A stretch of 36,182 nucleotides of DNA from Acidobacteriota bacterium (GTDB taxonomy: Bacteria > Acidobacteriota > Blastocatellia > Pyrinomonadales > Pyrinomonadaceae), in assembly GCA_019639215.1 (NCBI GenBank), contig JAHBSH010000016.1:1-36182 (forward strand). The letters run 5' to 3'. Below are positions 2-28,576 of the stretch, piece after piece (the first letter of the stretch is position 1; each line of letters begins with the position of its first letter). The notes under the pieces were generated by a model that ran no database searches, was not told the origin of the DNA, and saw nothing but the letters and a program-made list of their open reading frames with translations. A program made the position numbers and the translations under genes.

Positions 2-955
2 GGTGCTGCCTATTTCAGTTTACAGGAATGGTTTGCTTCGAACGGGCTCGGGCTGTCGTTTCTGCTGATCGTTCCTGCAATTTTCCTTTCCGGGCTGATG
101 GAAGTAAACAGTATCTGGCTCAATCGAAACAAAAGTTTTCGCTCTATTTCCGCAAACAAGGTTATAGCTGCCATAGTCACCGCATCAGTTTCGCTGACAT
201 GGGCGTTTCTGGTAAATAGAACATTTTTGGGCTTATTTGCCGGGCTTCTGATAGGACAGGTTGCGGCCGTACTTTTTTTGCATTATGAGAGCAGAAAATT
301 TCGCAGCGGCCCGATGGTAATGGAGAGAGCCTTGAAACTTATTAAAGATTTCAAGGATTTCCCTCTTTTTGAACTGCCCGCAACGCTGTCAAACACAGCC
401 GCCATACAACTGCCGGTATTTATGCTTGGGCGTTTTGCCGGAACTGAGCCTGTCGGCCATTTCAATATGAGCAACCGCCTGCTCGGGATGCCGGCGTTGC
501 TGATCGGCACGGCAATGGGCGAGGTCTTTCGCCAACGCGCGACCGAAGACTATCACAAACACGGAAACTGCCGCCCGATCTTGGTAAAAACTTTTCTTAC
601 GCTTGCCGCCATCGGCCTTTTCCCATTGGTCACGGTTTTGCTTTTCGGGCCGTGGCTTTTTGCCTTTGTCCTTGGAGAAGAATGGCGAACCGCCGGCGAA
701 TACTCACGCATCCTCGCCGTCCTTTTCTTTCTCCGCTTCTGCATCAGCCCCGTAACCTATGTCTTCTACATCGCAAATAAACAACGCCAAAATCTCATCG
801 GCCAGACCATTCTGCTATTATGCTCTTTCGTGCCTTTTATATTAGGTTTTTACTTTTACAGAACCGTTGAGGCCTCTTTACTCTTATATGTGATGAGCTA
901 TTCTCTCTTCTACATCCTGTATTTAGCCCTCAGCTTTCGGTATGCTAGAAGTTAA
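2..955 (+). CDS. Wzx-like polysaccharide flippase, 5' end cut by window edge
   Basis: The reading frame is open from the first bases of the window, so the first internal Met (base 98) is not the true start; about 317 C-terminal residues are visible. The protein is almost entirely hydrophobic helices separated by short basic loops, as in the polysaccharide transport (PST/MOP) family. A central stretch with FELPATLSN, GHFNMSNRLLG and GEVFRQR is typical of the middle helices of Wzx-type flippases, which are usually 420-500 residues. Such proteins move undecaprenyl-diphosphate-linked oligosaccharides to the outer face of the inner membrane. Its place at the head of a run of glycosyltransferases and an O-antigen ligase supports the role. 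Family is inferred from topology and context; another MOP exporter is possible. Confidence 0.75.
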   Translation, partial: GAAYFSLQEWFASNGLGLSFLLIVPAIFLSGLMEVNSIWLNRNKSFRSISANKVIAAIVTASVSLTWAFLVNRTFLGLFAGLLIGQVAAVLFLHYESRKFRSGPMVMERALKLIKDFKDFPLFELPATLSNTAAIQLPVFMLGRFAGTEPVGHFNMSNRLLGMPALLIGTAMGEVFRQRATEDYHKHGNCRPILVKTFLTLAAIGLFPLVTVLLFGPWLFAFVLGEEWRTAGEYSRILAVLFFLRFCISPVTYVFYIANKQRQNLIGQTILLLCSFVPFILGFYFYRTVEASLLLYVMSYSLFYILYLALSFRYARS

Positions 956-2389: not shown

Positions 2390-3400
2390 ATGGACAATTT
2401 TTTGTTAGATATTTTGGTGTGTCCTAAATGCAAGTCCTCCTTACGGCTTTTAGACGATTACTCGGGAGATTTTGATATTGAGGACGGCGGGCTTGAATGC
2501 ACAGCGTGTGCCGCGACATTTCCGATTATCAACGGTATTCCAAGATTTGTGCCGGTCGAAAACTACGCGTCATCCTTCGGACTGCAATGGAATAAATTCA
2601 GGACAGAGCAGTTGGATTCCGTCAATGGTTCGACCATTTCAAAAGACCGCTTTTATAGTGTTACTGAGTGGGAACCCGAATGGCTAGAGGGAAAGGTGAT
2701 CTTGGATGCCGGCTGCGGTGCAGGACGCTTTCTTGAGGTCGCTGCCGAAGAGGCAGCCAATGTAATTGGTATTGACCTCAGTTCGGCAATTGATGCCTCG
2801 GCAAAGAACTTTAGCACTAAGGAGAATATTCATTTTGTTCAGGCAAGCATTTATGAGCTTCCTTTTAAGGATGGCACGTTCGACGGAGCTTATTCAATAG
2901 GTGTCGTCCAGCACACACCCGATCCGAAAAAAACAGTTGAGTGCGTGGCAAGAATGATAAAGCCGGGCGGCATGATCGGACTGTTCATATATGAAAATCG
3001 GAAGTGGACATTGTGGTATTCCAAGTATCTTTTGCGTCCAATTACTACTCGTATGAGCCACACAGCGCTTCTTAGAACCATAAAACTATTTATGCCTCTC
3101 GGGTTTGTCGCATCAGAAGTACTTTTCAGGGTGCCGTATCTCGGAAAGATATTTAGATTTTTGCTACCGGTTTCCAATTATGTCGGCGTTAACTCCGGCA
3201 GCGCTCCAAACCTTTCAATTTCTGAAAGATACCAGTGGGCGATCATGGACACATTTGATATGTTTGCCCCGGCATATGACATGCCGCAAACCCAGGACGA
3301 GATAGAGGCTGTTCTCACGGTTTCAGGTGTTGAGGATATTCATAGAACAAAGGGGATAGGTCTTTGCCTTAAAGGCACTAAAACACAGCTGACCAAGTGA
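2390..3400 (+). CDS. SAM-dependent methyltransferase with N-terminal Trm112-like zinc ribbon
   Basis: 336 residues. Residues about 8-55 form a Trm112-like zinc ribbon: CPKCK, then CTAC about 30 residues later, followed by FPIINGIPRFVP. The class I methyltransferase core begins near residue 104 with VILDAGCGAGRFLEVA (motif I, SAM binding), then GIDLS, ASIYELPFKDGTFD and a GVVQHTPDP segment typical of the Methyltransf_11 family. Proteins with this architecture are frequent in polysaccharide clusters and may methylate a sugar or a lipid-linked glycan, though the substrate is unknown. The stop overlaps the GTG start of the next gene by four bases, so the two are probably translationally coupled. 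No clear Shine-Dalgarno precedes the ATG. Confidence 0.87.
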   Translation: MDNFLLDILVCPKCKSSLRLLDDYSGDFDIEDGGLECTACAATFPIINGIPRFVPVENYASSFGLQWNKFRTEQLDSVNGSTISKDRFYSVTEWEPEWLEGKVILDAGCGAGRFLEVAAEEAANVIGIDLSSAIDASAKNFSTKENIHFVQASIYELPFKDGTFDGAYSIGVVQHTPDPKKTVECVARMIKPGGMIGLFIYENRKWTLWYSKYLLRPITTRMSHTALLRTIKLFMPLGFVASEVLFRVPYLGKIFRFLLPVSNYVGVNSGSAPNLSISERYQWAIMDTFDMFAPAYDMPQTQDEIEAVLTVSGVEDIHRTKGIGLCLKGTKTQLTK

Positions 3401-4572: not shown

Positions 4573-5280
4573 ATGACGAGAACAGAAAATACAAATATCA
4601 CTGGTGAAGACCTAGCGGGAGGCTCGCTAGCCGTTTTTGATGTTTGTGATACGCTCTACTTTTCCAATACTACACATGATTTCGTCCGGTTCGCGGCGGA
4701 TAACAAGATGTCGGGTATCCGTAGATCTATCTTTCATATTTTTAACGCCCGTATTTCACCTCTTTTCTGGCTGCTCTTGGTAATGTCGCGTTTAAGCGGC
4801 AAGGATATTCATAAATCACTTAACATTGGTCTGCTCGGCGGAATGAGTTCACAAGAGGTTGAAAAACTTGCGAGCAAATTTTATCAAGAATTTTTATCTG
4901 ATAAGAAAATTTCTGTTTCGCATGCATTGATGCATGACGCCAGAAAAGCAGGACATGTAATATTACTTTGTTCGTCGAGCATAGAACCTGTCGTGAAGGC
5001 AGTTGCTGAAGGGATAGGAGCTGACAAATATTTATGTACAGAACTTGAGGTGTTGGACGATCACATATCGGGAAAGATCTCTCACGAGGTTCAGGGCATA
5101 AAGATCGGGAACATCCGGGAAAGATTCCCTGATGATGAGGTCGCTCTAGCCGTTTCAGACAATCTGAGTGATGCAAGTTTGCTGGCGGCTGCTCAAAAGG
5201 CGATCGCCATTTCATACTCAGACCGAGCCTCACAGTTTTGGAAAGATCAGAATGTCGAGGTGATCGATCTAAAACAATGA
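4573..5280 (+). CDS. HAD-superfamily hydrolase (HAD-IB like phosphatase)
   Basis: 235 residues. Motif I is VFDVCDTLY at residues 21-29: D23 is the nucleophile, but the usual second Asp (position +2) is Cys25, with Asp at +3. A similar change is seen in other polysaccharide-locus HAD proteins. Motif II is LLCSSS near residue 134, the Lys region is GIKIGN, and motif IV is AVSDNLSDASLL near residue 195. A helical insert after motif I (residues 35-110) fits a C1 cap. The reaction would be removal of phosphate from a small or lipid-linked substrate. The stop overlaps the next start by four bases (ATGA), tying it to the UbiA-like gene, so it could be the phosphatase acting on that enzyme's product. 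Loss of Asp +2 leaves activity uncertain. Confidence 0.75.
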   Translation: MTRTENTNITGEDLAGGSLAVFDVCDTLYFSNTTHDFVRFAADNKMSGIRRSIFHIFNARISPLFWLLLVMSRLSGKDIHKSLNIGLLGGMSSQEVEKLASKFYQEFLSDKKISVSHALMHDARKAGHVILLCSSSIEPVVKAVAEGIGADKYLCTELEVLDDHISGKISHEVQGIKIGNIRERFPDDEVALAVSDNLSDASLLAAAQKAIAISYSDRASQFWKDQNVEVIDLKQ

Positions 5281-6059
5281 TCGCATTTTTCAAATATTTT
5301 CTTCCGTTCACATACTTTGCGGCATCCAGGGTCAAAGGGCTGCAGATCTTTGTTTACCACGTGGTGATCGAATGGCTGCCGGCGGTGATGATCGTTGCCT
5401 ACTTCTCCGGGTTATCGGCAGATACAGCTGTCAGGCTAGGGCTTTACTACCTAGCCTTTATAAGCATTTATGAGATCGGATATCTGACGAATGATTTTAT
5501 CGCAGAGAAAAAAGAACACGATCCGCGGGGACGATCGAAGGAAGTTTCATTGAACAATGCCGGCTTATTGGCTTTGATCGCTTCTCGTATCGCATTCTTC
5601 CTCCTCATAACATGGGCACTTGAGTTATTTAACGACACACTTTGGTGGGCCTTTTATGTCTCATTGTCGGTGAGCTTCTTTTTTCATAACTACCTCGCAA
5701 ACCAATATCGTCTTCCGACGTTTACTGTTCTTTCGATATTTCGGTTTTTTGCTCCTTTCGTCTTTTTGATACAGAAAGATGCTCTGCTCATATTGCTACC
5801 TGTCGTAATATTTAACTACTCTCTGTTCCGGCTATTATCTTACGGTGCAAGCAAAGGCCTCGTGACACTCAAGAATCGAGAGGCGGCAAAATTCAAGATG
5901 CTTTATTATGCTAGTATATTGCCATTGAGTGTTTTCATCACTATTTTGTTCTCTTCGCCTTTACCAGTTGCCGCAACGCTTTACTATCTGGCGGCTTGGC
6001 TTCTGCAAGGCTTTGCCGCCTCATTAGTCAGTGGGCAAAATAACACAGAATCGAACTAG
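5277..6059 (+). CDS. UbiA-like polytopic membrane protein (possible polyprenyl-phosphate glycosyl donor synthesis)
   Basis: 260 residues. I chose the ATG at 5277, inside an ATGA overlap with the HAD gene, instead of a start 39 bases upstream that would add 13 charged residues ahead of the first hydrophobic helix. There are about seven to eight hydrophobic helices. After the second is GYLTNDFIAEKKEHDPRGR (residues 69-87), which resembles the first Asp-rich motif of the UbiA superfamily (NDxxDxxxD then a basic run), with some acids shifted. UbiA relatives such as mycobacterial decaprenyl-phosphate phosphoribose synthase put a sugar phosphate on a polyprenyl phosphate. The HAD partner upstream and GT-C-like enzyme downstream would suit that role. 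Assignment rests on one motif plus topology; an unrelated membrane protein remains possible. Confidence 0.5.
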   Translation: MIAFFKYFLPFTYFAASRVKGLQIFVYHVVIEWLPAVMIVAYFSGLSADTAVRLGLYYLAFISIYEIGYLTNDFIAEKKEHDPRGRSKEVSLNNAGLLALIASRIAFFLLITWALELFNDTLWWAFYVSLSVSFFFHNYLANQYRLPTFTVLSIFRFFAPFVFLIQKDALLILLPVVIFNYSLFRLLSYGASKGLVTLKNREAAKFKMLYYASILPLSVFITILFSSPLPVAATLYYLAAWLLQGFAASLVSGQNNTESN

Positions 6060-6092
6060 GATTTTCGTTAGTTCGGCTTACACATTCTAAGA

Positions 6093-7442
6093 ATGAAAAG
6101 TCTTGCTGTAGTTTTAAGTATTCTGGTTGCCGTTGCTATGGTTCTTGTCAACTACCCCAACGGCGCGGTCTCATTCTTTCTTGTCGTTATTTTGTCCATA
6201 CCATGCATCTTTATTCTTCATAAGCTGACGCCCAATCAAGACAAGAGATTCATTGTCGATCTGTTTCTTATTGCATTGTCGTTAAGGTTGCTCTTGGGTA
6301 TTGCTCTTGAGGTGTTAGACCTGAGGATGTTGGCCGGTGGTGATGCCAAGGGATACGATATGCTCGGAAGTCGTATTGCAGAATATTGGCACGGGTTGGT
6401 TGTTTATAATGACCCGTTGACAAGGCTGGCTATGGAACGCAATTCGAACTGGGGAATGAACTTCCTAGTTGCCATTTTGTATTACGTTATCGGGCCGAAT
6501 ATATTTGCGGCGCAGTCGGCGTGTGCTGTATTTGGGGCTGCGACGCCTCCATTGGCGTATCTGTGTTCGTTGAAGATATTTAAGAATCGTGATGTAGCAA
6601 AATATACTGCGATAGCTTTGGCTGTTGTTCCGGCTTTTATTTTGTGGTCAGGTCAGCTGTTGAAAGACGGGCTTATTGCATTTTTGCTTGTCCTTGCCAT
6701 CTATTTGGTCATGCGGTTGCAGGAGCGATTCAACTGGCTGGATGTCGTCTTGCTGATGGGAACGATGGCAGGCGTCATGGCGTTGCGATTCTATATATTT
6801 TATATGATCGCGGCTGCTGTAGCAGGGAGCTTCGTTGTTGGTTCGGGCACAACTAATAATTCCATGTTCAGACGAACTGCTGCTCTTATTGTTATAGCGT
6901 TCGGACTGACGTATTTTGGCGTGATGAGAACGGCCAGCCTGAATCTTAGTGAATATGGCCAACTCGAACGCATTCAGATGACACGCGACGCTCTCTCACG
7001 AGATGCAGGATCCGGTTTTGGAGATGACATAGATGTTTCCACCACCGGAGGCGCGGTCATGGCAATGCCTGTAGGGCTTACTTATCTGATGTTTTCGCCG
7101 TTCCCTTGGGAATTTAAGAGCATTCACCAGTTCATTACGCTGCCCGATCTGCTGATATGGTGGGCTACCATACCTTTTATTGTAATGGGGTTGGTATATA
7201 CATTCAGATATCGTTTAAGAGATGCCCTGCCGATATTGCTCTTTGTGCTGATGCTCTCGCTGGCATACTCCCTTTTTCAGGGAAATACAGGAATGATCTA
7301 TCGCCAGCGAATTCAGATACAAGTATTTCTTTTTATGATCGCTGCTGTCGGGTGGACACTTGTCAAAGAACGGCGTGAAAATCGCAGAATAATACAGAAT
7401 GAACAAGCTCAGCTTGTCCATGGCTCACATCTTCATACTTAA
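6093..7442 (+). CDS. Polytopic membrane glycosyltransferase, GT-C type (GT39/ArnT-like)
   Basis: 449 residues with about ten to twelve hydrophobic helices. Between the second and third helices is MLAGGDAKGYDMLGSRIAEYW (D84 inside GGDAKGYD), placed like the catalytic Asp loop in the first periplasmic segment of GT-C enzymes such as ArnT and PMT. After it come WGMNFLVAILYYVIG and a helix-rich half ending in a basic tail. GT-C enzymes use polyprenyl-phosphate sugars as donors on the outer face of the membrane. That fits the two genes just upstream, which could make such a donor. Start ATG is 33 bases after the UbiA-like gene. A Wzy-like polymerase is an alternative, but the GGDA motif after helix two favours GT-C. 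Confidence 0.6.
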   Translation: MKSLAVVLSILVAVAMVLVNYPNGAVSFFLVVILSIPCIFILHKLTPNQDKRFIVDLFLIALSLRLLLGIALEVLDLRMLAGGDAKGYDMLGSRIAEYWHGLVVYNDPLTRLAMERNSNWGMNFLVAILYYVIGPNIFAAQSACAVFGAATPPLAYLCSLKIFKNRDVAKYTAIALAVVPAFILWSGQLLKDGLIAFLLVLAIYLVMRLQERFNWLDVVLLMGTMAGVMALRFYIFYMIAAAVAGSFVVGSGTTNNSMFRRTAALIVIAFGLTYFGVMRTASLNLSEYGQLERIQMTRDALSRDAGSGFGDDIDVSTTGGAVMAMPVGLTYLMFSPFPWEFKSIHQFITLPDLLIWWATIPFIVMGLVYTFRYRLRDALPILLFVLMLSLAYSLFQGNTGMIYRQRIQIQVFLFMIAAVGWTLVKERRENRRIIQNEQAQLVHGSHLHT

Positions 7443-7508
7443 AACCGTTAATCTCTGTCTGCCTAACAAGACCTCAGATAAACAATCAGTTACAATTAGA
7501 CTTTTATC

Positions 7509-9395
7509 ATGTGCGGAATAGTTGGGATAGTTAACAGCTCCGGCAGCGTCAGTAGAGATGTGCTGGAAGGAATGAACCGGGCGATACTTCATCGCGGCCC
7601 GGACGATGACGGTTTTTATGTTAATGAGAATGTCGGCCTTGCGATGCGTCGCCTCTCGATCATCGACCTTTCCAGCGGAAAGCAGCCTATTCACAACGCT
7701 GACCGTACAAAATGGATAGTCTTTAACGGAGAGATCTATAACTACCAGGAATTAAGAAAAGACCTGGAAAAAGACGGACATAGGTTCTATACAAATTCGG
7801 ATACCGAGGCGATCGTACACCTTTATGATAGATACGGCGCCGATTGTCTTAGATTCCTAAGAGGCATGTTCGCATTTGCCATCTGGGACGAGACTGAGAA
7901 AGAACTTTTCATCGCTCGAGACCGCGTCGGGAAAAAGCCGCTTCTCTACTCTCATCAGCCTAACGGAAATCTAATATTTGGTTCTGAGTTTCGAGCCCTC
8001 CTTGAACATCCTGACATTTCCCGCGAGGTCGATAGCGAGGCCATAGATGCCTATCTATCATATCTTTGCGTTCCGGCTCCGCTGACGGCGTTCAAACAGA
8101 TCCGCAAGCTCGAACCCGGACATTGGCTGAAATGGAAAGCCGGGCAAATAGAGACAAGTCGCTATTGGCTGCCTGATTTTTCTAAAAAGATAAAGATCTC
8201 GGAAGAAGAAGCGATCGAAGAGACTACGCGGATCTTGCGCGAGTCCACAAAACTCAGGATGATCTCTGATGTCCCGCTCGGAGCGTTTCTTTCCGGAGGA
8301 GTTGATTCTTCTACGGTGGTTGCCTTGATGGCACAGGAAAGCTCTAAACCGGTCAAGACATTTTCGATCGGATTTGAGGATGAAGATTTCAGCGAACTGA
8401 AATATGCACGTCGCGTTGCGGAACACGTAGGGGCAGAATACAACGAATTCATCGTTCGGCCGGATGCTCTTGAGATCTTGCCGACGCTGATAGAGCATTA
8501 TGGCGAGCCGTATGCCGATTCAAGCGCGATACCGACCTATTACGTATCACGCGAGACCAGAAAGCACGTCACCGTTGCTCTGAACGGTGACGGCGGCGAC
8601 GAGAGCTTTGCCGGATATGACCGCTATCTGGCAATGAAGCTTGCTTCCGTATATCGTCGCTTTCCGGGTTTCCTTAGACAGCCGTTTATTGAATTTCCGG
8701 CAAGCCTTCTGCCTACTTCCGAAAAAAGGCGAACATTTTCGCGTGATATCAAAAAATTCATTGCGTCCGCACAAGGCACTCCGCCGCAGCGTTATCAGGG
8801 TTGGATGTCAGCATTCAAACCCGATGCAAAGGCTGGCCTTTATACGGGTGAGTTTGCTGAGACCCTTACCGATGCAGATGCTTTGATGTTCCTCGAAAAA
8901 TGGTTTGCCAAGGCAAACGGATCGGGCATAGTTGATACAACGCTCTTGGTAGATCAAATGACATATCTGCCTGATGATCTTTTGGTGAAGGTCGATATTG
9001 CTTCAATGGCAAATTCGCTGGAGGCGAGGTCGCCTTTCCTCGACCATAATCTCATCGAGTTTGCGGCAACACTTCCCGCAAACCTTAAAATTAAAGGCTT
9101 AAAAACAAAATATTTGCTGAAAAAGATCGCATCGCGGCTGGTTCCGCCAGAGGTTATCTACAGGCAAAAGATGGGATTCGGTGTGCCGATCGGTCGTTGG
9201 TTCCGCGGCGAGATGAAAGATTTTGTTCGAGATGTTCTGCTTTCTGAAACCGCCGCAAAGCGAGGCATAGTTCAACCGGCAGCCGTAGAGCGTTACATTA
9301 ACGACCATATTTCCGCAGAACGTGACAACACGGCACAGATATGGACGCTTCTGATGATGGAGCTTTGGTTCCGCAGATTCATTGACCGTCAATAA
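7509..9395 (+). CDS. asnB: Asparagine synthase (glutamine-hydrolysing) / amidotransferase
   Basis: 628 residues. The protein begins MCGIVGI, so Cys2 becomes the N-terminal nucleophile of the class II glutaminase after Met removal; RGPDDDG, FNGEIYNY and SDTEAI complete that site in the first 100 residues. The synthetase domain has the ATP-pyrophosphatase P-loop LSGGVDSS near residues 261-268, then GDGGDESFAGYDRY and KVDIASMANSLEARSPFLD. Length fits the AsnB family. It could make asparagine, but copies in polysaccharide and exosortase-linked loci often amidate uronic acids or other sugar intermediates, and its place between glycosyltransferases suggests that. No promoter is obvious in the 66 bases upstream. 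Confidence 0.92.
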   Translation: MCGIVGIVNSSGSVSRDVLEGMNRAILHRGPDDDGFYVNENVGLAMRRLSIIDLSSGKQPIHNADRTKWIVFNGEIYNYQELRKDLEKDGHRFYTNSDTEAIVHLYDRYGADCLRFLRGMFAFAIWDETEKELFIARDRVGKKPLLYSHQPNGNLIFGSEFRALLEHPDISREVDSEAIDAYLSYLCVPAPLTAFKQIRKLEPGHWLKWKAGQIETSRYWLPDFSKKIKISEEEAIEETTRILRESTKLRMISDVPLGAFLSGGVDSSTVVALMAQESSKPVKTFSIGFEDEDFSELKYARRVAEHVGAEYNEFIVRPDALEILPTLIEHYGEPYADSSAIPTYYVSRETRKHVTVALNGDGGDESFAGYDRYLAMKLASVYRRFPGFLRQPFIEFPASLLPTSEKRRTFSRDIKKFIASAQGTPPQRYQGWMSAFKPDAKAGLYTGEFAETLTDADALMFLEKWFAKANGSGIVDTTLLVDQMTYLPDDLLVKVDIASMANSLEARSPFLDHNLIEFAATLPANLKIKGLKTKYLLKKIASRLVPPEVIYRQKMGFGVPIGRWFRGEMKDFVRDVLLSETAAKRGIVQPAAVERYINDHISAERDNTAQIWTLLMMELWFRRFIDRQ

Positions 9396-9434
9396 AGACC
9401 TTTTTGCCCCTAATCCAAGTTGACCATATAGCTG

Positions 9435-10640
9435 ATGAACGTCCTTCGCATGATCGCACGCCTTAACGTCGGTGGCCCGGCGCGTCATGTGCTGTGGCTA
9501 ACGAAAGGTCTGGACAATGACAGGTTCAGATCGCGATTGGTAGCCGGAACTGTTCCGCCCGGCGAAGAGGATATGGCATATCTTGCGGAACAGCTTGGGG
9601 TAACACCTACCTACATTCGCGAAATGAGCCGCGAGTTGTCACCGCGTGACATCATCTCTTTATTCAAGGTATATCGTGAATTGCGGCGATTCTCACCGGA
9701 TGTCGTTCATACACATACGGCCAAAGCGGGAACGGTCGGCCGTGTCGCCGCTTTTGCGTATAAATGGTTTACGCCTAGTGTTCTCGTCGGTCGCCCGCGT
9801 CGCGTCCACGTTGTTCACACATTTCACGGACACGTATTTCACAGCTACTACGGACAGGCAAAGACCAGGTTATTCCTTTTTATAGAAAGAACGCTTGCCC
9901 GTTTTGCCACAGACAAGATCATCGTCATCTCTCAGCAGCAGCTTGAGGAAATAAACGGAACATTCAGCGTCGGCAGCAGAGATCAATTCGAAGTCATCCA
10001 GTTGGGCATTGACCTTGATCCGTTCAAAAAAGTTCCCTCGCCTCAGCCGCTTTCCGAACGCGGCCTCATCATTGCTTTTGTCGGCCGTTTGACGGAGATA
10101 AAGAACTTACCGATGCTGCTGAAAGCTGTGGCGAAATATAAAGAATTTTACAGCGAAGCCGTCGAACCTGAATTGACCATTGCCGGCAGCGGCAGCCTCC
10201 GCGAAAGCCTTGAAAGAACGGTTCTTGATCTGGCCCTCGATAAGAACGTCACATTTATCGGTAACGTCGAGGAAACAGCGTCCGTCTATGCTGATTGTGA
10301 CGTAGTGGCTCTGACCTCGCTGAATGAGGGAACGCCGCTTTCGCTGATAGAAGCAATGGCAGCCGGAAGGCCTGTAATTTCGACGACCGTTGGCGGCGTC
10401 ACTGACCTTTTAGGCGAGATCGTAGAGGAAAGAGATGGCTTCAATATTTGTGAAAGAGGCATTGGCGTTGCCTCCGGCGAAGCCGAAGGGTTTGCCAAGG
10501 GCTTGCGTTATCTGGAAAAAAATGAAAGATTACGAGAAACGCTTGCTGATAACGCCCGCGCTTTCGTTATCGAAAATTATTCCAAAGACAGGCTGATAAA
10601 TGATATTTCAAGGCTTTATGATTCTCTGGCCGAAAAGTAA
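9435..10640 (+). CDS. Glycosyltransferase family 4
   Basis: 401 residues. The start LRMIARLNVGGPARHVLWL carries the GGP acceptor-domain turn; DVVHTHTAKAGTVGRVAA and VHTFHGHVF are GT4 signatures. The donor domain shows IIAFVGRLTEIKNLPMLLKA near residue 210 and TSLNEGTPLSLIEAMAAGRP near residue 295, containing the EX7E donor site. It resembles the enzymes that act near the start of O-antigen or EPS assembly on the undecaprenyl-linked first sugar. It lies 24 bases ahead of the WecA-like gene, consistent with acting on that product. Sugar specificity is not readable. Confidence 0.9.
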   Translation: MNVLRMIARLNVGGPARHVLWLTKGLDNDRFRSRLVAGTVPPGEEDMAYLAEQLGVTPTYIREMSRELSPRDIISLFKVYRELRRFSPDVVHTHTAKAGTVGRVAAFAYKWFTPSVLVGRPRRVHVVHTFHGHVFHSYYGQAKTRLFLFIERTLARFATDKIIVISQQQLEEINGTFSVGSRDQFEVIQLGIDLDPFKKVPSPQPLSERGLIIAFVGRLTEIKNLPMLLKAVAKYKEFYSEAVEPELTIAGSGSLRESLERTVLDLALDKNVTFIGNVEETASVYADCDVVALTSLNEGTPLSLIEAMAAGRPVISTTVGGVTDLLGEIVEERDGFNICERGIGVASGEAEGFAKGLRYLEKNERLRETLADNARAFVIENYSKDRLINDISRLYDSLAEK

Positions 10641-10664
10641 GGCTGTTTTCGCCTGAAGATGTAA

Positions 10665-12473
10665 ATGCAGGAACTTGTTCAAAATCCGATATTCGTTTGC
10701 GGGCTTGCCATTGCTGTCTCGATAGGTTTTACATTCGCCGTTCGTGCTTTCGCACACAAGATCGGCCAGGTCGCAAAACCAAAATCCGACCGCTGGCACA
10801 AACGCCCGACCGCCATGCTCGGCGGTGTTGCTATCTTTCTCACCGTCGCTGTTCTTTTCGCATTTCTTACGCCAAAAAACACCGATTCGCTCGTCATTCT
10901 CGGCGGCAGCACGTTTCTCTTTTTTATCGGCCTGATAGACGACCTGCTTGATATAAAGCCTTATCAAAAGCTTGTCGGGCAGCTTATCGGAGCTCTCGTG
11001 ATAGTCGGGTTTGGCCTGCGTCTGCCGCTGACCGGTTCTGAGGTGATCGATTCCGCAATAACTGTTTTCTGGGTTGTCGCAATAACCAACGCGATCAATC
11101 TTTTGGACAATATGGACGGCCTGGCAGCAGGCATAGCGGCCATCGCGGCAATATCACTCGCCGTCGGTTTTTGGAATCACGGCCAGATCTCTGACGCTTT
11201 GCTGATATCCATCTTTATCGGCGCTCTGCTCGGCTTTCTTGTATTCAATTTTAATCCGGCGTCCATCTTTATGGGCGATTGCGGGTCGATGTTCGTCGGG
11301 TTCTTTCTCGCCAGCTCTGTTTTGCTGAGCGATGTCGGCGGCGGGCGTTCGCGCGGCATTTTCACGATACTCGCCGTTCCCGTGCTGATACTTTTTGTCC
11401 CGATATTCGACACGACCTTTGTAACGATCCTTAGAAAACTTTGGGGAAGAAAGGCATCGCAGGGCGGACGCGACCATACGTCTCACCGGCTGGTAGCACT
11501 CGGGCTGTCAGAACGTTCGGCTGTGCTGATGATCTATGGTTTCGCCATATCCGCTGGCGTTCTCGCTCTGTTCGTAAGCAGGCTTCGCGTAACGCAGAGC
11601 CTCGCCCTTATCGCCACGTTCACCGTCGCTCTTTCCCTTATAGGCGTCTATCTTTCAAAGGTCCGCGTTTACGATCAGGCCGAAGAGGAGCTTGCTTCAA
11701 AGAACAACGCTATGTTCGCGTTTTTGGTTGACGTTTCTCACAAACGGCGGATCTTTGAGGTGTTTCTTGATCTGATCCTGATAACGGTCTGCTATTACGC
11801 CTCGTACGTCATTATCTTTGGCCCTATCGAATCCAGCGGTGAATGGCCCGTTTTCAGCAAATCTCTTCCGCTGATCGTCATACTAAAGCTTTTCGCTTTT
11901 CTCATCTCCGGCGTCTATCGCGGCCTGTGGCGATACACAGGGCTTTCTGACCTGATCATCTTTACCAGAGGCGTTGTACTTGCCTCGGCATTGTGCGTTT
12001 TCGCGATCTTGCTCTTGTGGCGGTTCGAGGGTTTTTCAAGAACGGTCTTTGTGGTTGACGGCCTGCTCCTGCTGCTTGCGGTCTTCGGCAGCCGTCTCAC
12101 ATTTCGTCTTATTCGCGAAATGCTGCCCGGTTCCGGCGGCGAAAGAACACGCCGCGTTCTTATTTACGGAGCGGGCGACGGCGGCGAGATGGTTCTTCGT
12201 GAACTTCGCAATAATTCCGAGCTTGGTTATCAGCCGGTCTGCTTTGTTGACGACGATCCTTTAAAACAGGGCAAGGTCATCAGCGGGTTAAAGGTTTATT
12301 CGAGCGATGACGACATCAGCAAGCTGTGTGAGAAAATGGAGATAAGCGAGATGCTGGTCTCTTTCAGAAATGCCGAGGATGAAAAGCTTGAGGAACTGAA
12401 AGAGATCTGCCGCGGCTTGAACATAACGCTTAAAAAGGCTGAGTTTCGCATTGAGACCGTAGAGCTGGATTAA
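10665..12473 (+). CDS. WecA/TagO-like phosphoglycosyltransferase fused to a CapD-type N-terminal region
   Basis: 602 residues in two parts. Residues 1-350 are a MraY/WecA-family polyprenol-phosphate sugar-1-phosphate transferase with about ten helices. Motifs are GLIDDLLDIKPYQKL (Asp pair, Mg), NAINLLDNMDGLAAG, SIFMGDCGSM and GGRDHTSHRL (the HxxHR-like donor loop). This starts glycan synthesis on undecaprenyl phosphate. Residues about 360-600 have four more helices and then a Rossmann nucleotide-binding start, RVLIYGAGDGGEMVLREL, followed by FVDDDP. This matches the N-terminal (CoA-binding-like, PF13727-type) part of CapD/PglF/FlaA1 sugar dehydratases, but the catalytic short-chain dehydrogenase domain that should follow is absent. 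No stop or frameshift separates the halves, so it is a true fusion. The second half may bind a nucleotide sugar or regulate the first. Confidence 0.9.
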   Translation: MQELVQNPIFVCGLAIAVSIGFTFAVRAFAHKIGQVAKPKSDRWHKRPTAMLGGVAIFLTVAVLFAFLTPKNTDSLVILGGSTFLFFIGLIDDLLDIKPYQKLVGQLIGALVIVGFGLRLPLTGSEVIDSAITVFWVVAITNAINLLDNMDGLAAGIAAIAAISLAVGFWNHGQISDALLISIFIGALLGFLVFNFNPASIFMGDCGSMFVGFFLASSVLLSDVGGGRSRGIFTILAVPVLILFVPIFDTTFVTILRKLWGRKASQGGRDHTSHRLVALGLSERSAVLMIYGFAISAGVLALFVSRLRVTQSLALIATFTVALSLIGVYLSKVRVYDQAEEELASKNNAMFAFLVDVSHKRRIFEVFLDLILITVCYYASYVIIFGPIESSGEWPVFSKSLPLIVILKLFAFLISGVYRGLWRYTGLSDLIIFTRGVVLASALCVFAILLLWRFEGFSRTVFVVDGLLLLLAVFGSRLTFRLIREMLPGSGGERTRRVLIYGAGDGGEMVLRELRNNSELGYQPVCFVDDDPLKQGKVISGLKVYSSDDDISKLCEKMEISEMLVSFRNAEDEKLEELKEICRGLNITLKKAEFRIETVELD

Positions 12474-12486
12474 GCCCTGATAATTT

Positions 12487-13761
12487 GTGTCGGTTTCCGT
12501 AATAAACATCAAACCCAAAATTCGGCTCGCCGGCGTGGTTGCCGTGCCGTTGCTGCTGCTTATTCTGTCGTTTCTGACATTGAAATGGGCGGCAGGCCGT
12601 GCAGTTGCTCTTCAGGCAGAATTGCCCGAAGAAGCTGAGTATGCGATAGGTCTGGCTCCCGGCGACCCGCAGACGCATTTTGCCGCAGGCATCATGCGGT
12701 CTGAAACGTTCGGCATCGAAAACTACGATCTTGCCCTGACACATTTTGAGAACTCTGCCGCCCTGTCGCCGCACAATTACCTTATTTGGCTTGAGGTCGG
12801 GCGCCTACGCGAACGCAGCGGCGAAGCAAAGGACGGCGAGGAAGCTCTTCGGTTTGCGTCCCTGCTGGCTCCTAATTATTCCTCGGTCCAATGGGCGATC
12901 GGCAACAATCTGCTTCGCCAGGGCAGATATGACGAGGGCTTTGCGGAGATAAGAAAAGCGGTTCACAGCGATCCCAAATACACGGCTCCCGCAGTTGGCG
13001 TTCTTTGGAACATACTCAACGGCAATGTCGATGAGATCCAGAAAGCTCTTGGCGATCTGCCTCAGGCGCGGATCGCCCTGATAAGCACTTTGTCATCGTC
13101 GGGCCGTCATGACGATGCGGTCGCCACATGGAACTCACTTTCCACAGAAGAAAAAAGATCTGAGCAGGCAGAGTCCGCCGCAAACTCGCTGCTGAAAGTT
13201 CTCATCGACGGAAAACGATTTCGAGACGCCCTAAAGATCGTGGCGGACAGAACGGACGGCAATGCCATTCCCGCACTGGCAACGGTGACGAACGGCGGTT
13301 TTGAATCGCCGATAAATATCAGGGCAACAAGCTTGTTTGATTGGACGTTCCCTGACGGCAATGCTCCGCAGATCAGCCCGACGGATGGATCACGCCGCTC
13401 AGGCAATTTCAGCATCGTCTTTGCCTTTGGCAATCTCAGCGATAAATTTCGGAGCCCTTACCAGACGATCGCCGTTGAACCGGGCAAGCGATACAGGCTT
13501 GAGGTGTTTTACCGCTCCGAGTTAAAGACAAAGGCAAAGCTTGTCTGGAAGGTCATCGGCCTCGGTGACAAAAAAGTGCTTGCCGTGTCCGATCCGCTAA
13601 AGGAAAGCTCGGCTGACTGGGAAAGTGTTGTCATGAACTTTGCTGTGCCTGACGACACAGACGGCGTGCAGATATCGTTTGTGCGAGAGGGTTGTTCGGG
13701 CATTCAGTGTGCTGTTGGCGGGCTGTTATGGTTGGACGACATCAGCCTCACAGCCGAATAG
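12487..13761 (+). CDS. Membrane-anchored TPR protein with C-terminal carbohydrate-binding-like domain
   Basis: 424 residues from a GTG 13 bases after the WecA fusion. A single hydrophobic segment at residues 12-32 anchors the N-terminus. Residues about 45-250 contain TPR-like helical pairs (for example LALTHFENSAALSPHNYLIW and GRYDEGFAEIRKAVHSDPKY). Residues about 258-424 resemble a CBM4/9-like galactose-binding jelly roll: NGGFESPI at its start, then SGNFSIVFAF, PGKRYRLEVFYRS and ending LLWLDDISL. The protein probably sits in the periplasm and may bind the growing glycan or act as a scaffold between the initiating enzyme and the ligase, whose gene follows 9 bases later. Function is inferred; no enzyme motif is seen. 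Confidence 0.72.
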   Translation: MSVSVINIKPKIRLAGVVAVPLLLLILSFLTLKWAAGRAVALQAELPEEAEYAIGLAPGDPQTHFAAGIMRSETFGIENYDLALTHFENSAALSPHNYLIWLEVGRLRERSGEAKDGEEALRFASLLAPNYSSVQWAIGNNLLRQGRYDEGFAEIRKAVHSDPKYTAPAVGVLWNILNGNVDEIQKALGDLPQARIALISTLSSSGRHDDAVATWNSLSTEEKRSEQAESAANSLLKVLIDGKRFRDALKIVADRTDGNAIPALATVTNGGFESPINIRATSLFDWTFPDGNAPQISPTDGSRRSGNFSIVFAFGNLSDKFRSPYQTIAVEPGKRYRLEVFYRSELKTKAKLVWKVIGLGDKKVLAVSDPLKESSADWESVVMNFAVPDDTDGVQISFVREGCSGIQCAVGGLLWLDDISLTAE

Positions 13762-19680: not shown

Positions 19681-21456
19681 TTATTTTGTCCATTCGTCCG
19701 AAACGGCAACATCTACCTTTACCGGCACTTTATTTATAAATTCCTCGCCGGCGCGCACCATTGAACTTTCCAGCGTTGCGGCTATCGCATCTGCCTCTTG
19801 AGCGTCGCATTCAACGATCACCTCATCGTGGACAATGTTCACAAGTTTGCCGGAAGTGTTCCGCAGGCCGTCATGCAAAAGCCGCAGCGATCGCTTCAAA
19901 ATATCCGCAGACGTTCCCTGTATCGGCATGTTCACGCCATATCGCCGTGCGGCGCCGACCTCTTGCCGGTTGGCAGCGTCAAACCGCAGCTTGAGCGTTC
20001 TGCCTGATCCCGTTCGGGCGATGCGTTCATCAGTAACCTTTGCCGCTGATGTGCGAAGATATTCATCCAGCTTTCGATAAGTGCTGAAATACTTCCGCAT
20101 CGTATTCTCTGCGTCCGATTGCGAAAGCCCTGTCATCAGCCCAAACCGCGAAGCGCCAACGCCGTAAACAATGCCGAAATTCAGACGCTTGGCAAATGAC
20201 CTTTGCTCTGACGTAACGTCTTCGGGCTTTGCCTTAAAGACCTGTGCGGCGGTCATCGTGTGAAAATCCTGTCCGGAAACAAATGCTTCAATGAAAGCCG
20301 CATCGTCAGAAAATTCCGCCAGTATCCTTAGCTCGATCTGCGAATAGTCGGCAATGACGAGCTTTCGTCCTTCCGGTGCGCGAAAGCACCGGCGGTATTT
20401 CGTTTCGTGCGGTATCTGCTGAAGGTTCGGGTGCGAACAGGAAAAGCGTCCCGTCGGTGCACCTATCTGGCGAAAATCTGCGTGCACACGGCCCGTATCA
20501 GAGCGGACATATTCCAGTATGTTCTCGCCAAAGCTGGTCGCGGCCTTTTGCACTTCGCGATATTCGAGCAGCTTTGCCACAGGCGGATATTTCTCGGCCA
20601 GCGGCTGGAGCTGCCATGCACGTGTGCTTTCAGGCATCGGGATGCCAAGGTTCAGAAGCGCGCCCATCACCTGCGTGTGTGAATCAAGGTTTATCTCCGT
20701 CCGGCCAAACAGGGTTGCCTGGGCAACACCGGCAGCCAGCAGATCTTGCAGCTCTTCTGCTTTTTGTGCCACGACAGCCTTGACCTCGGTCAGCCTTTCA
20801 CGCCATCGCTCTTCATCAAGGAAAAAACCGTTCAGCTCCATTTCCGCGACCGGAACGACCGTCTCAAACTCCAATCCGGCAACGCGTTCCAGATCGTCCG
20901 CCTTCAAACGGTCAGCCATCTGCTGATGCAGCGGCAACAGAACGGCAGCATCGCGCGCGGCGTATTCCAGCTGAGATTGCGAAAGCTCCGGCGACGCCCA
21001 ATCGCTGACCTGCTGGCTTTTGTCCAGTTCGGTTCCGGTAAAAAATTGGGCAACATCCGCCAGCGAATGCCGACGCTCGGTCTCGCCTGCGGCGATCAGC
21101 AAACTTGCCAGATATGTGTCAAAGACGCCGCCGAGTTCGCATCCCAGATGATGCCGCACCCATTTGGAGTCAAATTTGGCATTATGAACGACCTTTGTGT
21201 GTCTTTCGCTCGCTATCAGATCACGCAGCGGCGCCAGATCGGCATTTTCCCGAAGTCCGCCTTTTTCACGAAAAGGCAGCATGTCAAAGATCACCGAACC
21301 TTTGCCCGAACTGAACTGAACAAGCCTCAGATCGCCGTCATAAGGGTCAAGCTCGGTCGTTTCCGTGTCAAAACCAAGCGTTTCATCCGCCGAAAGCTTT
21401 TCGCACGCGGTCTTTACCGTCTCGGCATCCGTGACAAGCTGAAAATAGACATCCAT
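19681..21456 (-). CDS. polA: DNA polymerase I, Klenow-type (3'-5' exonuclease plus polymerase, no 5' nuclease)
   Basis: 591 residues, against about 928 for E. coli PolA; it matches the Klenow fragment in length. The proofreading domain is intact: FDTETT (D30, E32), HNAKFD (91-96) and YAARDA (Y165, D169) are the three DEDD-Y motifs. Family A polymerase motif A is VIADYSQIELR near 370, motif B is RSFAKRLNFGIVYG near 420, and motif C is NIVHDEVIVE near 540, with both catalytic Asp residues. No 5'-3' FEN-like nuclease domain is encoded, and the ATG is followed directly by the exonuclease domain, so this is the natural start. It would fill gaps in repair and Okazaki processing, needing a separate nuclease. 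It is transcribed divergently from the RNase E/G gene. Confidence 0.93.
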   Translation of the reverse strand: MDVYFQLVTDAETVKTACEKLSADETLGFDTETTELDPYDGDLRLVQFSSGKGSVIFDMLPFREKGGLRENADLAPLRDLIASERHTKVVHNAKFDSKWVRHHLGCELGGVFDTYLASLLIAAGETERRHSLADVAQFFTGTELDKSQQVSDWASPELSQSQLEYAARDAAVLLPLHQQMADRLKADDLERVAGLEFETVVPVAEMELNGFFLDEERWRERLTEVKAVVAQKAEELQDLLAAGVAQATLFGRTEINLDSHTQVMGALLNLGIPMPESTRAWQLQPLAEKYPPVAKLLEYREVQKAATSFGENILEYVRSDTGRVHADFRQIGAPTGRFSCSHPNLQQIPHETKYRRCFRAPEGRKLVIADYSQIELRILAEFSDDAAFIEAFVSGQDFHTMTAAQVFKAKPEDVTSEQRSFAKRLNFGIVYGVGASRFGLMTGLSQSDAENTMRKYFSTYRKLDEYLRTSAAKVTDERIARTGSGRTLKLRFDAANRQEVGAARRYGVNMPIQGTSADILKRSLRLLHDGLRNTSGKLVNIVHDEVIVECDAQEADAIAATLESSMVRAGEEFINKVPVKVDVAVSDEWTK

Positions 21457-26341: not shown

Positions 26342-28576
26342 TTATCTCTGCGTTCTCTGTGTCCTCCGTGGTGAATTTCCTTCCACTATACGCACAGTCA
26401 ATATCTTATCGCCGCGAACGATATTATCTACGACCTTCATATCGTTTTCGTTCACTTTACCAAAGACGGTGTAGCCGCCGTCCAGATGCGGCTGCGGCGA
26501 ATGCGTGACGAACCATTGCGAACCGCCGGTATGTTTTCCGCTCAGTGCCATGCCGACAACGCCGCGTTCATAGGCCAGCATATTCACCTCACAGCGAATG
26601 GACCAGCCCGGCCCGCCGCTGCCATTTCCGAGCGGATCGCCGTCCTGCATCACAAAATTGGGCACTACGCGGTGCACGTCCAGTCCGTCAAAATATTTCG
26701 CGTTCGCAAGCTTGATAAAATTATCCACGGTCAGCGGAGCGTCCTCAGCCATCAGGTCTATCGTAAACCTGCCTTTTTGTGTGGTAAACACGGCCTTGGC
26801 AGAACCGTTCTTTCTCGCTGCCGCACGGCGGTAATCAGCATTGGTATTCAAGACCTGCCCGAGCTTTGTCCCATATGCCGGGTTCAGCGGCAGCACCTTG
26901 TCGCCGCGTTTTTTCCTTGCGTCCTCCAGCGACGCCTCTATTCCCGGAAAGTCTTTCTGGAGATCTTTTTTTGACAGCAGTTCAAAAGCAAGTTTTCTGA
27001 CAAGAAAATCCGGAGAAGTTAACGCGACCATCAGGCTTCCGACCGATGCCTTTGCATCCAATTTATTCAATGCGCTCAGCGTGGCAAGCTGTGCGTCGTT
27101 ATCGCGTTTGTCCGTGACCAGCGCGCGGGTGAACGCAGACCTTAGGGCATCCGTATTTTCTTTTGAAGCAGGCTGCTGGCCCAAAAGGTTCGCAGCAGTT
27201 GTTCGTATAAACACATCCTTGTTTGACAGCGCCCTGCGCAATATCACATCAAGGTCTGCTGTCTTAAATCTTGCATAGGCACGCAAAATATCCGGCCCGG
27301 CAAATATTCGCTTACCTTCCTCGCTCGGATCGGCATCAGCATAGGCTTCTGCAAGCGGTCTTAAAACCTGCGGAGCCTCGGCCTTCATCTGTTTGCCTTC
27401 GTCGTTTGTCGGTTCTACTGAGGCAAATTCCCCGATAAGCTGCGCCATTGTGCTGTATTGGCGCCAGTCTTCTAATCCGCCGTCCATCTTATCGCCTCGG
27501 CCCGGAGCTATCCGCAACCGGGCAATATAGATCTCAGGCGAAAGGGCGTTATCCAGTTCACCAAAACCGCGAAGATATGCGACCGCTCCTTCATCAAAAG
27601 TGTTTGGCAGCAATTGCCCAAGCACTACAGCGATCTCAAGCAGTTCACTTTGTTCTTTTGGAAAAAGGCTAGGCTTTTTATCTTTCTTGTACCTTTCCAG
27701 TAATGCATTGCCGTGTTTTAGCAGCGGCTCGGCGGCTTTTTTGTCCTTTAGCTGTGCCAAAGAGCGGATCGCCGAAACGCGAACGCGGCTGTCGTCGTCA
27801 CCTATAGCTGCTTCGATCAGAATATTAAAAGCATCTTTGTCATCGGCCGCCCCCAAAGCTCTCGCAGCATTTGCCCGCGCGACCGCATCGTCATCAGCAA
27901 GCAAGATGGTTCTCAGAGCAGTGTTCGCATTTTTTGCTCGCATGCGTGACAGAACATTTGCGGCATCAGCCCGGACGCGTGCATCCATGTTCGTCAAAAA
28001 CTTTGCCGCAACGCCGTCCGTTCCCTCAGGCCTTACACGCAGAGCCGCCGTCAGGCCCTGAATGATAACGTCCTTGCTCTGCCCGCTTGTTTTCTTTGCC
28101 TCGGCATCCAGAGTATCGAGTATCGCATCGCCCAGTCTTACGATACGCGGGTCTTTTTCAGAACCGGCAGGCCCGGCATTCGCGGCAGCTATCTTTCCCG
28201 CCGCTTCCAGCAAACGTGCTCGAAGCTCAGGTGATGCTTTTGTGTCCTGCAAAGCCCTTTCCACGAACGTTATCGCCATTTCGCTCTCTATCTCACCGAG
28301 GGCAAAAGCGGCGAATGGTTTAACAGCGGCGTTGCCGTTTTCCAAAATCGCCGCGACACCATCTACGGCTCTTGCATCACCGATACGCCCCGCAGCAAGC
28401 AAAGCACGTTTCTGCACCGCGATATTCTTGCTGATAATGAATGGCTTCAACGCATCAAGATCAAGCGAATCCTCTGCTTTGAGGATCGCGATATGCGTTG
28501 CGACGGGAACCTGTGCAATGGCTGAAAACGAAAATATCAGAATAATAAGAGCAGCGATCTTGAGGGTGTTTTTCAT
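26342..28576 (-). CDS. Secreted HEAT-repeat protein with C-terminal cyclophilin peptidyl-prolyl isomerase
   Basis: 744 residues. A signal peptide (MKNTLKIAALIILIFSFSAI, then AQVP) directs export. Residues about 30-560 are HEAT-like repeats with the usual D-R-A/N-A pattern (AVARANAARALGAADDKDAF, SRVRVSAIRSLAQLKDKKA). Residues about 585-730 are a cyclophilin domain: HRVVPNFVMQDGD holds the catalytic Arg and the F/M/Q pocket, and GGSQWFVTH and LDGGYTVFGKV follow. The position of human His126 is Tyr, as in many bacterial forms. It would speed proline isomerisation of exported proteins, with the HEAT solenoid for binding. The last ten codons (PRRTQRTQR) come from a dispersed DNA repeat. The start overlaps the stop of the upstream gene by four bases. 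Confidence 0.9.
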   Translation of the reverse strand: MKNTLKIAALIILIFSFSAIAQVPVATHIAILKAEDSLDLDALKPFIISKNIAVQKRALLAAGRIGDARAVDGVAAILENGNAAVKPFAAFALGEIESEMAITFVERALQDTKASPELRARLLEAAGKIAAANAGPAGSEKDPRIVRLGDAILDTLDAEAKKTSGQSKDVIIQGLTAALRVRPEGTDGVAAKFLTNMDARVRADAANVLSRMRAKNANTALRTILLADDDAVARANAARALGAADDKDAFNILIEAAIGDDDSRVRVSAIRSLAQLKDKKAAEPLLKHGNALLERYKKDKKPSLFPKEQSELLEIAVVLGQLLPNTFDEGAVAYLRGFGELDNALSPEIYIARLRIAPGRGDKMDGGLEDWRQYSTMAQLIGEFASVEPTNDEGKQMKAEAPQVLRPLAEAYADADPSEEGKRIFAGPDILRAYARFKTADLDVILRRALSNKDVFIRTTAANLLGQQPASKENTDALRSAFTRALVTDKRDNDAQLATLSALNKLDAKASVGSLMVALTSPDFLVRKLAFELLSKKDLQKDFPGIEASLEDARKKRGDKVLPLNPAYGTKLGQVLNTNADYRRAAARKNGSAKAVFTTQKGRFTIDLMAEDAPLTVDNFIKLANAKYFDGLDVHRVVPNFVMQDGDPLGNGSGGPGWSIRCEVNMLAYERGVVGMALSGKHTGGSQWFVTHSPQPHLDGGYTVFGKVNENDMKVVDNIVRGDKILTVRIVEGNSPRRTQRTQR
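26346..26375. repeat. Dispersed intergenic repeat overlapping the end of a gene
   Basis: The segment reads CTCTGCGTTCTCTGTGTCCT then CCGTGGTGAA on the plus strand. This CTCTG-rich sequence is of a kind I recall as common between genes in many environmental bacterial genomes. Here it encodes the last residues of the HEAT-cyclophilin. The family link is from memory, not a search. Confidence 0.55.

Follow-up and report, generated by a model that had tools for sequence, protein, structure and literature searches.

A two-gene module of a HAD phosphatase-like protein and a predicted UbiA-like membrane protein, proposed to add ribofuranose to bacterial surface glycans

Introduction

Ribofuranose (Ribf) is common in bacterial surface glycans, and two enzymatic routes to its incorporation have been described as far as our literature search reached. 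ORF15 of Citrobacter youngae is a HAD-UbiA fusion, which makes polyprenyl-phosphate-ribose from PRPP, with the HAD part removing the 5'-phosphate (PMC11127046). This lipid-donor chemistry is known as part of a three-component pentofuranose system (PPPRS, flippase and a GT-C transferase of family GT136), and in the published case the lipid donor and GT-C together give an alpha linkage (PMC11127046). The dual-domain gPRT-PRP ribofuranosyltransferases of Klebsiella O4/O7, instead, transfer a phosphoribosyl group to the glycan, dephosphorylate it with a HAD domain and yield beta-Ribf (PMC11127046, PMC11231755); gPRT is a cytoplasmic protein. The UbiA-fold phosphoribosyltransferase known in structural detail is the mycobacterial DPPR synthase Rv3806c (8J8J/8J8K), whose PRPP site has Asn73 and Asp77 as Mg ligands, Tyr70 and Lys28 as contacts to the 5'-phosphate, and Lys87 and Arg90 as contacts to the pyrophosphate (PMC10994848). 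The phosphatase that acts with it, Rv3807c, does not belong to the HAD proteins.

Here, we describe a pair of adjacent genes that resembles these systems in part, encoding a HAD protein and a membrane protein of an unnamed family. If the reading proposed below is true, the pair would be a third, membrane-based route to ribofuranose.

Results and discussion

The locus

The DNA under study (hereafter, the window) is an entire contig of 36,182 nucleotides from the 2.9 Mb draft genome of an Acidobacteriota bacterium. It carries a polysaccharide cluster with a flippase fragment, glycosyltransferases, a methyltransferase, an XrtA-type amidotransferase, a WecA-like starter, and TPR and Wzy_C proteins. 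The flippase (98..955, forward strand; PF13440/PF01943, profile positions 100-290 of 293) is the C-terminal part of a MOP-superfamily polysaccharide flippase truncated by the contig start.

Three consecutive genes on the forward strand are of interest. The gene at 4573..5280 encodes a HAD-IB phosphatase-like protein of 235 aa (PF12710, 9e-13; TIGR01490, 69 bits, which is under the cut-off of that NCBIfam model), a DxC variant as discussed below. The gene at 5277..6059 encodes the integral membrane protein of 260 aa, predicted to have a UbiA fold, and starts with the ATG inside ...ACAATGA; the one at 6093..7442 encodes a GT-C-like multi-span protein of 449 aa (PF13231 PMT_2, 2e-8). The ORF coordinates confirm the gene positions, the four-base ATGA start/stop overlap between the first two genes (5277..5280, forward strand) and the 33-base gap before the third that had been noticed in an initial reading of the sequence alone (the sequence-only reading). 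From the ATGA overlap, we infer translational coupling of the HAD and UbiA-like genes; a similar overlap is found in an Alistipes plasmid and in many relatives.

Two other proteins of the cluster combine several domains. The WecA/MraY-like transferase (10665-12473; PF00953) continues into a C-terminal CoA_binding_3 domain, usual in polyprenyl glycosylphosphotransferases, and the methyltransferase (2390-3400) has an N-terminal Trm112-like zinc domain.

A family of membrane proteins paired with HAD proteins

Sequence searches of Pfam, NCBIfam and the PDB gave no match for the 260-aa membrane protein, and single-sequence searches of genus, class, viral, plasmid and genome collections gave no relatives. 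A short DNA motif scanned across the phylum returned, besides the window, only chance matches (including L012 and L050). The entry to the family came from the HAD protein, which matched a protein of an Alistipes plasmid; its gene lies in a glycan cluster and shares an ATGA overlap with a hypothetical gene. The product of this neighbouring gene is a distant relative of the membrane protein of the window (22% identity, pairwise E 2e-5), and its motif reads YEMGYIQND...E..P, against YEIGYLTND...E..P in the window protein.

A DNA pattern built for the YE/GY/ND/E/P motif and run on species genomes retrieved at least 80 loci from many phyla, and nearly all of those among the matches listed are true family members. 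Some of them stand alone and are about 260 aa long; in the others, an N-terminal HAD domain is fused to the membrane part, which brings the length to about 500 aa. The membrane parts of both architectures belong to one family (hhalign E 8.7e-19). Among the matches listed, a HAD gene lies directly upstream in 28 of the 30 standalone loci with upstream DNA; in one of the other two it lies 2.6 kb upstream, and in the last none was seen. In about 40 further loci among the matches listed, HAD is fused to the UbiA-like part. The pairing with a HAD phosphatase that the sequence-only reading had suggested is therefore strict and recurrent. Because no Pfam or NCBIfam model exists for this family, it is largely unannotated.

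The fusions (L015-L089, e.g. L046:2354-3874) occur in cyanobacteria, proteobacteria, Hydrogenedentota and others. They have a canonical DxDxT motif, lack the residue corresponding to R86 of the window protein, and are found in varied surroundings in which a common glycan cluster is not evident. Neither the 25 most frequent families of neighbours nor 44 unclassed ones scanned with Pfam showed a DprE1/DprE2-like epimerase that stood out beside the pair. Judged from the gene pairing, the unit is the two-gene pair of HAD and UbiA-like proteins.

Fold of the membrane protein

AlphaFold2 modelled the membrane protein with high confidence when 60 family sequences were supplied (pLDDT 94.5, pTM 0.89), and poorly from the single sequence (pLDDT 52). 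The best PDB match in Foldseek was the UbiA homologue 4tq6 (probability 1.00, TM 0.50), but with a weak E of 0.046; the Rv3806c structures 8j8j/8j8k were also listed, with a probability of about 0.8. In VIA, 8j8j aligned over 223 residues (Z 10.4, rmsd 4.8), tied with soluble prenyl synthases scoring up to 11.4, so that structure alone does not single out phosphoribosyltransferases. Profile methods gave no link to UbiA: PF01040 matched none of the 35 standalone and none of the 22 fused members (57 in all), and hhalign against 19 true UbiA proteins was not significant (probability about 2% or less), although the sole piece aligned with the standalone group, itself without a significant score, sets the ND motifs in register. 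The UbiA-like helical bundle postulated by the sequence-only reading is thus supported by the predicted model and its fold matches.

Motifs and the putative PRPP site

Residues of the window protein noted as family features are R18, Y65-E66-x-G68-Y69, N72-D73, E80, P83, R86 and N138. Its first Asp-rich motif reads N72-D73-x6-E80, with A76 where NDxxDxxxD would have the +4 Asp, and is indeed atypical, as had been remarked at the outset. The corresponding segment of Rv3806c is Y70-xx-N73-D74-xx-D77-xxx-D81, followed by K87. By spacing, Y69, N72, D73, E80 and R86 of the window protein correspond to Y70, N73, D74, D81 and K87 of Rv3806c, of which Y70, N73 and K87 take part in PRPP binding. The two proteins, about 11% identical over the structural match, would therefore have in common, besides the UbiA-like bundle, a Tyr at N-3, the Asn, an Asp at N+1, an acidic residue at N+8 and a Lys or Arg at N+14. 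D77 of Rv3806c has no counterpart and R90 is unmatched; R18 could stand in for K28. Since A76 takes the place of the Mg-binding Asp77, the metal site must differ. No second Asp-rich motif was found: the helix end placed in correspondence with it, by position in the model and not by superposition, reads YGASK in the window protein and YxDSK or ERxxxxR in its relatives.

The Tyr, Asn and Asp are invariant across all aligned members, but the motif pattern used for the collection requires all three; the acidic residue 80 and Arg86 are informative because they lie outside that pattern. The standalone group keeps the Tyr at N-3 and the Arg at N+14. Arg86 is present in nearly all standalone members and absent from the fusions, whose chemistry may therefore differ. 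If ribofuranose is indeed the sugar transferred, YE-x-GY-xx-ND-x6-E-xx-P would be a sequence marker for ribofuranose-containing glycans.

ORF15 of C. youngae shares with the window pair the glycan-cluster setting, the coupling of a HAD phosphatase to a membrane enzyme of (here predicted) UbiA fold, and the NDx6(D/E) spacing. The window family differs in not being recognizably UbiA by Pfam or hhalign, in being encoded, within its group, by a gene separate from that of HAD, in lacking the +4 Asp and in having a DxC HAD partner.

The HAD partner

A profile search of the PDB with the HAD protein matched phosphoserine phosphatase (1f5s, E 6e-10), with which it would share the HAD-IB fold and motifs I-IV; the PRP domain of the ribofuranosyltransferases was not found in that search up to E 1. 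While 1f5s has an Asp at position +2 of motif I, the nucleophile motif in the window is D23-V-C25-D-T. The Cys that the sequence-only reading had pointed out is a family trait: in an alignment of 23 HAD partners, D23, C25, S134, K177 and D200 are invariant, so that the +2 position, expected to be Asp in the DxDxT of HAD-IB, is Cys in 23 out of 23. By a rule-based match, motif I is DxD in the fusions, and most partners of standalone proteins have DxC. Error or decay as the origin of the Cys was ruled out by its invariance among these partners; more generally, because both the atypical Asp motif and the HAD Cys are conserved across the family, they are to be regarded as family traits and not as errors. 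We propose that the HAD protein is a 5'-phosphatase acting on the transferred phosphoribosyl group.

The GT-C-like gene and the variable module

The sequence-only reading had envisaged the three genes as a complete set to make, dephosphorylate and transfer a lipid-linked pentose. The distribution of the genes does not bear this out. Of 158 genomes of the class, 115 contain a homologue of the GT-C-like gene, and none of the relatives searched there was found to have the HAD/UbiA-like pair; conversely, the homologue occurs in only one of the other 27 pair-bearing genomes and was not found in 26. Across the genomes compared, the HAD and UbiA-like genes recur together, as anticipated, but the GT-C gene does not travel with them, as would the dedicated GT-C of the three-component system.

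In the nearest relative (G012), the backbone genes for GT-C, amidotransferase, GT4, WecA and TPR are 77-94% identical to those of the window, and different genes occupy the place of the pair. A blastn comparison aligned 6445-13000 at 83% and nothing upstream. DNA similarity thus starts at 6445, within the GT-C gene and downstream of the pair, and residues 1-118 of its product (6093-6446) are 40% identical to the nearest relative against 94% for the rest, a recombination edge within the gene. It follows that an exchangeable module, with its edge inside the GT-C gene, holds the pair, and that the N-terminal part of GT-C, including the GGDAxGYD loop, shares this variable module with the pair. In a tree, the window protein falls among mostly Bacteroidota members (support 96/94 for a set of eight), which is consistent with horizontal gain.

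Phylogenetic spread and synteny led us to reject the GT-C gene as part of the module; as read from these comparisons, it is part of the conserved EPS backbone of the lineage and not specific to the pair. A related multi-span protein is carried by some nearby Bacteroidota loci, and in view of this a functional link of the GT-C-like protein with the pair may exist.

The pair in E. coli O-antigen clusters

Using a Citrobacter copy as a lead, we found 62 positives among 5426 complete E. coli genomes. The clusters examined (L210-L214) are annotated as O5, O185, O54 and one untyped, and in each of them the HAD gene adjoins the UbiA-like gene. The UbiA-like ORF beside HAD is unannotated in four of these five records and a 'hypothetical protein' in the other; in the O5 record L211, it spans 9691-10479.

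The O5ac O antigen contains beta-D-Ribf (PMC9912281). The O5 cluster is composed of two GT2 genes, Wzx, Wzy, sugar-nucleotide genes and the pair, the two GT2 proteins being its only other transferases. We take the O5 repeat unit to be made up of four sugars, the first added by WecA, and O54 presumably contains Ribf as well. With a unit of this composition, three transfers are left for the two GT2 enzymes and the pair, and so the pair must account for the ribofuranose. No soluble gPRT domain was found next to HAD, where the neighbour is the predicted membrane UbiA-like bundle. Apart from Wzy, no GT-C-like gene was found in the O5, O54 and O185 clusters, nor was a second flippase. It must be considered that the window protein is 18-23% identical to the E. 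coli proteins and belongs to a separate subclade, so that O5 may not speak for it. If the assignment is true, the ribofuranose step that is missing for E. coli O5-type antigens would be identified with the pair.

Proposed function and alternatives

The predicted fold, the gene pairing, the conserved motifs, the presence in O5, O54 and O185 clusters and the published beta-D-Ribf of O5 are the basis from which we infer PRPP as the donor, ribose as the sugar of this organism, direct transfer and the substrate of the phosphatase. In the reading we prefer, to which we assign a probability of about 0.5, the pair is a two-gene sugar-adding module for PRPP-dependent phosphoribosyl transfer to a lipid-linked glycan followed by 5'-dephosphorylation by HAD. 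The UbiA-fold protein would use PRPP on the cytoplasmic side of the membrane and pass ribofuranosyl-5-phosphate, inverting the linkage to beta, to a membrane-held acceptor. This acceptor is most likely a sugar hydroxyl on the undecaprenyl-PP-linked repeat unit under construction. The 5'-phosphate would afterwards be stripped off by the coupled HAD protein. With such an acceptor, a separate GT-C would not be needed. A single inversion from alpha-PRPP gives a beta product, as in O5. The two-step logic would be that of gPRT-PRP, performed by a predicted membrane UbiA-like bundle in place of a cytoplasmic protein.

As the main alternative, it is conceivable, although rather unlikely, that the pair makes undecaprenyl-phosphate-ribofuranose by phosphoribosyl transfer to polyprenyl phosphate and subsequent dephosphorylation, which a flippase exports and a GT-C protein (perhaps that at 6093-7442) uses to add the pentose in the periplasm, as in C. 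youngae O1. Both explanations involve a UbiA phosphoribosyltransferase followed by a phosphatase, and they differ in the acceptor and in the need for GT-C. Both UbiA-fold phosphoribosyltransferases studied so far accept polyprenyl phosphate (PMC11127046, PMC10994848), the window cluster contains a MOP flippase fragment and a GT-C-like gene, and the part of the latter with the GGDAxGYD loop shares the variable module. However, GT-C genes are common in genomes that lack the pair, and in 26 of 27 pair genomes no homologue was found; unlike in the ORF15 system, neither a dedicated GT-C nor a second flippase goes with the window-type pair, as is apparent from the O5, O54 and O185 clusters; and the Ribf of O5 is beta-linked, while that of the ORF15 system is an alpha side chain. 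In addition, in Wzx/Wzy assembly the repeat unit is built first and only then flipped to the periplasm. Direct transfer from PRPP fits this order better than a GT-C step in the periplasm. Of the lipid-linked pentose pathway originally suggested, the PRPP/pentose role appears likely from the PRPP-site positions and the pair in the ribofuranose-containing O5 cluster, whereas the lipid-linked intermediate is possible and not required.

Less probable still is that the phosphosugar transferred by the pair is not phosphoribose, or that its product is some other intermediate, lipid-linked or phosphorylated. In that case, the altered metal site and the DxC HAD would reflect a different chemistry, which would agree with A76 in place of Asp, with Y-x-D/A-S-K or E-R-x4-R in place of a second Asp motif, with the invariant Cys, and with fused relatives devoid of R86 in varied surroundings; the location of the pair in the O5 cluster and the retention of Tyr at N-3 and Arg at N+14 in the standalone group argue against it. 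Finally, an ordinary quinone- or heme-type prenyltransferase beside an unrelated HAD gene is very improbable. The UbiA-like fold is the sole point in its favour, and is outweighed by the strict HAD pairing, by the glycan-cluster setting in the window, the Alistipes plasmid and E. coli, by the lack of PF01040 matches in all 57 members and by the two true UbiA proteins that the genome already has.

On a wider scale, and with a likelihood somewhat short of even, the direct phosphoribosyl transfer proposed above would define a family of membrane-embedded UbiA-fold glycan phosphoribosyltransferases, each with a dedicated DxC HAD, that add beta-ribofuranose directly to lipid-linked repeat units in E. 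coli O5, O54 and O185 and in many phyla, a second and unrelated solution to this task.

Minor observations

The genome of the window has two UbiA matches only, both of the kind found class-wide. Some congeners (L168, L174, L180, L181) have a canonical UbiA phosphoribosyltransferase-like protein, that of L168 matching Rv3806c at 5.7e-36. Elsewhere in the window, a single protein (26342-28576) joins HEAT repeats to a following cyclophilin-type peptidyl-prolyl isomerase domain, and a family A DNA polymerase of 591 aa (19681-21456) has 3'-5' exonuclease and polymerase domains, with no 5' nuclease domain found by Pfam.
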